A stretch of 64,000 nt of DNA, taken from positions 310,001-374,000 of the forward strand of contig NZ_CXWE01000007.1 of assembly GCF_001404515.1 (NCBI RefSeq). Direction: 5' to 3'. This document shows positions 1-486 of this stretch, in pieces. The stretch's first letter is position 1; every line of letters starts with the position of its first letter. The translations under genes were made by a program, and so were the position numbers. The notes beneath the pieces were generated by a model that did not search any database, had not been told where the DNA came from, and saw only the letters and a list, made by a program, of their open reading frames with translations. The stretch comes from Roseibium album (lineage in GTDB: Bacteria > Pseudomonadota > Alphaproteobacteria > Rhizobiales > Stappiaceae).

Positions 1-486
1 GATGCCGGGCGTGAACTCGATCCGATCATCATGAGCCTTGCCGTTTGGGGTCAGAAATGGTCGCGGGATATGGAAACCGAAGATCTTGATCCGGCATTCC
101 TGGCGTGGAGCATGCACACAAGGCTGAATGTCGAGGCCATGCCCGCGCACCGTATTGTCATGGAATTTGCCTTTTCCGGGACGCACAAGGGCTTGAGCCG
201 CTTCTGGCTTGTGGTTGAAGACGGTCGCGTCGACATGTGCCTTAAGTATCCCGGTCTGGAGGTGGATGTCGCCATCTCTTCGGATATCAGGTGTTTTTTT
301 CAAGCAGAAGACGGCATACGAGATCTGCGCAGCGAAATTGCCAGCGGTCAGGTGTCCGTGTCTGGCTCGACGGCCTATCGCAGGGCACTGCCCGACTGGT
401 TGATGTTGAGCGCATTGGCACAATTTCCCAGACAAACCGGTAACGAGGCAGGTGCCGGCGAACCGCATATTGCGCGGACGGGTTAA
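1..486 (+). CDS. HxlR-type regulator with C-terminal SCP2-like domain (5' partial, adapter-corrupted)
   Basis: The frame is open from base 1 and ends at TAA 484-486, so the start lies upstream of the window. The first visible residues (AGRELDPI then a WG-x-KW stretch) look like the end of an HxlR winged-helix domain. The rest resembles the SCP2-like sterol-carrier fold appended to many actinobacterial and alphaproteobacterial HxlR regulators, ending in a PDWLMLSALAQF segment. Between SSDIR and LRSEIASG the protein reads CFFQAEDGIRD, the peptide produced when Illumina P7 adapter plus poly-T is translated, so those ten or so residues are not biological. Family spacing suggests the adapter replaced rather than inserted sequence (inference). 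The family assignment is moderately sure; the protein sequence as given is certainly wrong at 294-324. Confidence 0.7.
   Translation, partial: DAGRELDPIIMSLAVWGQKWSRDMETEDLDPAFLAWSMHTRLNVEAMPAHRIVMEFAFSGTHKGLSRFWLVVEDGRVDMCLKYPGLEVDVAISSDIRCFFQAEDGIRDLRSEIASGQVSVSGSTAYRRALPDWLMLSALAQFPRQTGNEAGAGEPHIARTG
294..324 (+). other. Illumina P7 adapter sequence with 5' T-run (artefact)
   Basis: A run of seven T (294-300) is followed at 301-324 by all 24 bases of the Illumina P7 flow-cell primer, beginning CAAGCAGAAG and ending ATACGAGAT. The grafted flow-cell oligo has the same poly-T then P7 layout. A perfect 24-base match in the canonical orientation is not expected by chance. It sits in frame inside the partial HxlR gene and yields the well-known contaminant peptide FFQAEDGIRD; the +2 frame gives the companion contaminant FFKQKTAYEI. 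Confidence 0.97.

Follow-up and report, generated by a model that had tools for sequence, protein, structure and literature searches.

Exact Illumina P7 oligo in a regulator gene of a Roseibium album genome: probable mispriming at a native look-alike site

The window, meaning here the whole stretch of 64,000 nucleotides of Roseibium album DNA (genome G000) that was analysed, opens within the 3' part of a regulator gene (Table 1). With the start codon placed, by our choice, 246 bases upstream of the window, the whole gene encodes 243 aa. A Pfam search of this protein returned HxlR (PF01638) at residues 18–104 with E = 7.6e-22 and 77.4 bits against a cut-off of 20.8. No other family, SCP2 included, was obtained at E ≤ 0.001, so that of the HxlR/SCP2-type protein proposed in a previous, sequence-only reading the HxlR part was borne out and the SCP2 part was not. 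The frame is open within the window and at the P7 site translates as CFFQAEDGIRDLRSE. Embedded in it is the 24-base Illumina P7 oligo (CAAGCAGAAGACGGCATACGAGAT), present at 24 out of 24 bases and preceded by seven T, both as the sequence-only reading had recognised. On the grafted oligo P7 is preceded by a spacer of ten T, and we read the T-run as that spacer. Reading frame and length are conserved despite the P7 sequence. Downstream of the gene, at 555–569 of the window, 15 bases of a short GC-rich repeat are present that are missing in the relative G030.

Table 1. Features at the P7 site, in positions of the window.
Feature	Position	Strand	Basis
3' part of HxlR-domain regulator gene	1..486	+	open frame, gene extent, Pfam
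Overwritten columns, 11/20 differing from G030, all matching P7 or T	292..311	+	ungapped comparison
Run of seven T, read as grafted-P7 spacer	294..300	+	sequence and G030 comparison
Illumina P7 oligo, exact	301..324	+	0 mismatches, single copy in genome
Native 13 bases equal to P7 3' end, presumed priming site	312..324	+	identical in G030

Allowing up to 3 mismatches, P7 has no second match in the window; in the entire genome (6,901,692 bases) this site was the sole match at up to 2 mismatches, a threshold at which the P5 oligo gave no match. Even the 12-base 3' end of P7 is found only once in the genome, at the same place. A chance origin of the match was rejected as 0 out of 100 shuffled sequences gave any match. 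The site lies roughly 310 kb into a contig of 413 kb, that is mid-contig, and gene sequence follows P7 directly, with no index and no read-2 or transposase adapter. The exact P7 copy is a laboratory artefact and not biology.

The native form of the site was sought by searching 61 genomes with bases 1–290 of the window. Seven genomes matched, own genome included, one of them (G002) over 27 bases only, and the closest relative was G030 with 96% identity over the queried bases. The G030 gene aligned across the P7 site ungapped, with neither insertion nor deletion, and its neighbourhood matched as a single block, 3,306 aligned bases long, that spans the site at 91.9% identity. As this alignment is ungapped and contiguous, the flanks in the window belong together and the frame is kept, and the suspicion that the two sides had been joined falsely is not upheld. 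Differences from G030 amounted to 11 in the 20 overwritten columns versus 20 in the 386 flanking bases (10 in 186 upstream and 10 in 200 downstream). The native G is retained at 291 and 293, and the T at 292 could instead be a natural difference. The full P7 is absent from the native gene of G030, only its last 13 bases being found there, and this 13-base word occurs once in the G030 genome, at the orthologous place. G030 is identical at 312–324, so this 3' portion of the apparent oligo is native sequence. Comparison with a close relative's orthologue, which had been recommended, thus returned a native site. It reduced the estimate of about ten replaced residues to five that differ from G030; these five are identical across all five aligned relatives. 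The warning that the protein record is unreliable here proved justified.

Among 45 genomes of the genus the 13-mer was present in five, two of them with P7 (G000 and G028) and three without (G030, G033 and G034). The look-alike site alone is therefore not sufficient. In the class Alphaproteobacteria, P7 was found in 2 of 385 sampled genomes, and in the other P7 genome of these, G347, it is followed by an index and a transposase adapter. The congeneric G028 carries an exact P7 after eight T that then continues into genomic sequence (L305, C20:51780-51803, minus strand) at a distance of 386 bases from a contig end. It also has a P7 with one mismatch where another contig starts (L306, C26:5-28). 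Both of these direct junctions were left out of the comparison with native counterparts described below. Base 22 is the only position at which P7 differs in L306 (C) and likewise in Rhizobium phage Palo (L294) and Salmonella phage SPFM13 (L295), both of which have T. The grafted P7 oligo presumably has 8-oxo-guanine at base 22, which would fit the T in the two phages.

The usual appearance of P7 copies was surveyed in 120 genome-contig stretches and 120 viral-contig stretches, with adapters scored at up to 3 edits for two adapters. Among the matches listed, adapter followed 118 out of 124 P7 copies in the genome contigs and 117 out of 123 in the viral contigs, where the scan pattern demanded five T. 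Clear direct junctions of P7 to genome numbered, among the matches listed, four in genome contigs (L051, L086, L098 and L122) and five in viral contigs (L145, L152, L179, which is phage Marfa, L192 and L201). The other adapterless genome-contig copies were L058, with an index and a partial transposase adapter, and L097, which ends 9 bases past P7; the sixth adapterless viral copy, L176, has an index and a truncated read-2 adapter. A T-run of at least seven stood before 71 of the 77 genome-contig copies with at least 12 upstream bases, again among the matches listed. As these genome-contig copies are mostly ordinary adapter copies, such a run does not tell the flow cell from PCR. In a phage collection, 61 of 50,697 records matched a doubled P7 query at E ≤ 1. 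Inspection of 17 sites in 16 of these 61 records gave 10 with index and adapter and 7 direct junctions, of which Palo, with its one mismatch, is one. Several of the full P7-index-adapter copies in phage records lie within annotated genes.

Direct junctions with a native counterpart were obtained at eight independent sites, the window with G030 included. At six of the eight, the native sequence agrees with P7 in 13–14 of its final 15 bases, a match that 0 of 127,832 positions reached in the null, for which this window alone was used. The metagenome-assembled genome (MAG) Ww503 matched at 9/15 bases ungapped, or at 8 + 9 paired bases with a one-base bulge, the null covering ungapped matches only. 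The match of IMG/VR contig L145 is weak (11/15), 19 of the 127,832 window positions doing as well. The native form was located in L261 for L145, on another contig of its own and in G449 for Ww503, and on a different contig of the same MAG for Ww118. In Paenibacillus sp. GM2 the native site lies 118 bases from the artefact and the sequence that follows is nearly the same. Klebsiella phages Marfa and EI share one site, native in HMGUkp2 and Clarke_MM3 and, with a 12-base match, in AmPh_EK29. The Vibrio phage D173 group has its native form in D68 and 219E41.2, and in E. coli O157 typing phages 7 and 8 the junction falls within phiV10-type DNA. The counterparts of GM2 and Ww118 were first found by searching for P7-like sequence, those of the other six without using the match. 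For direct junctions L098, L152, L192 and L201 a native counterpart was searched for and not found, and for those of Saba and Palo only distant relatives were found (63% and 75%).

As in the window, T precedes P7 and genome follows directly in Marfa, EI, D173, GM2, Ww118, Ww503, typing phage 7 and L145; typing phage 8 shows the same direct fusion with masked N instead of T. Marfa, EI, D173 and L145 are furthermore collinear overwrites like the window. GM2 differs in being a false partial duplication, seen 118 bases after the native look-alike in a contig of 3.6 Mb (L122, NZ_LN831279.1), and the junctions of Ww118, Ww503 and typing phage 7 are contig ends whereas the site in the window is internal. 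The record ends of typing phages 7 and 8 that lie beside P7 (KP869105.1 167312-167735 and KP869106.1 79-502; L302 and L293) are identical to phiV10, which looks like assembly cross-contamination.

One-for-one replacement of bases was seen in five internal records at four sites, namely G000, Marfa together with EI, D173 and L145. In all five the replaced block did not extend beyond the interval from -13 to +17 relative to where P7 starts; every change at -14 to -1 was to T. D173 differs from D68 at 16 of 1,226 positions, each of them inside the block. An isolated T is found at -13 in D173 and L145, followed by native bases, and at -9 in the window, flanked by native G's; this mosaic of T and native bases appears to fit a column-wise vote better than a single physical junction. 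Eleven Vibrio phage records shared the D173 form at a single site, with 99.8–100% identity. Seven further Vibrio phage records were at 98.3–98.7%, and both of the two that were fetched were native.

What is established for the site is an exact P7, a 13-base match that is native in the relative and occurs just once, collinearity, and recurrence at other native look-alikes. These features are very probably accounted for by P7 mispriming at such a look-alike and a subsequent collinear overwrite of an otherwise ordinary, intact gene. As the native 13-mer of G030 was found once, at this place, P7 most likely misprimed there. The oligo would anneal by mistake at the 13 bases that equal its 3' end and be extended, either on the flow cell or in a PCR with bare P7 primer, yielding products in which P7 is joined directly to genome without index or read-2 adapter. 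The resulting reads would lead from the right flank across the native match to P7 and on into the T spacer, and would be overlooked by trimming aimed at the read-2 or transposase adapter. Once placed collinearly, these misprimed reads could then outvote the native bases in approximately 20 columns, giving substitution with no indel. We consider it likely that direct P7 junctions represent a general, sequence-predictable consensus error at look-alikes of the P7 3' end, by which finished genomes can be silently overwritten over approximately 20–35 bases.

Another source of P7 in assemblies is ordinary read-through, in which untrimmed P7-index-read-2 adapter is assembled and unrelated flanks become falsely joined. 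This is the common form, as the adapters after most P7 copies among the matches listed in both surveys attest, but it is highly improbable here since neither index nor adapter follows P7 in the window and since G030 has both flanks contiguous, with 13 of the 24 P7 bases as native sequence. Reads with P7 might also have overwritten the columns with the oligo placed by chance or ligation rather than by priming on the native match. The priming step is one that we infer, and, as L145 shows, even a weak match can suffice; placement of this kind is nevertheless improbable, given that the site is the only 12-mer match to P7 in genome G000 and that 6 of the 8 independent cases have a match attained nowhere in the null.

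Virtually no credence is left for real biology, in which the strain would have acquired the P7-like sequence through mutation. The open frame and conserved length are what such a history would leave, but the sequence is that of an exact synthetic oligo, the changes are crowded into the overwritten columns relative to the flanks, each being to P7 or T, and the five altered residues are invariant in the aligned relatives. The artefact has a well-supported cause in mispriming at the look-alike with subsequent overwriting.

In practical terms, neither a variant at 292–311 nor the protein record should be relied on; gene, frame and flanks remain usable. The same error is found inside named phage and bacterial records, including the 11 Vibrio phage records. 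Because length and frame can survive this error, quality checks may let it through and it may be mistaken for a real, even shared, variant. If the general reading is true, affected sites could be forecast from genome sequence, length and sometimes frame would be kept, and such errors would evade trimming aimed at the read-2 adapter.

Adapter contamination of microbial assemblies despite trimming is known (Moeller et al. 2024, PMC11536531), so the kind of error is not new. A native-site version of P7 contamination was not found described in the literature searched, and may still have been published; the excerpts consulted of PMC3163567 bring up mispriming solely in connection with mixed sequencing primers. 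According to excerpts of PMC11536531, contamination was counted there by the 12-base start of the read-2/read-1 adapter, a screening word that is absent from the P7 site of the window, and was concentrated at contig ends, breaking contigs. The window resembles the cases in those excerpts in that Illumina library sequence has been built into a published microbial genome, and differs from them in that P7 stands alone, mid-contig, on a native look-alike and with the contig unbroken.
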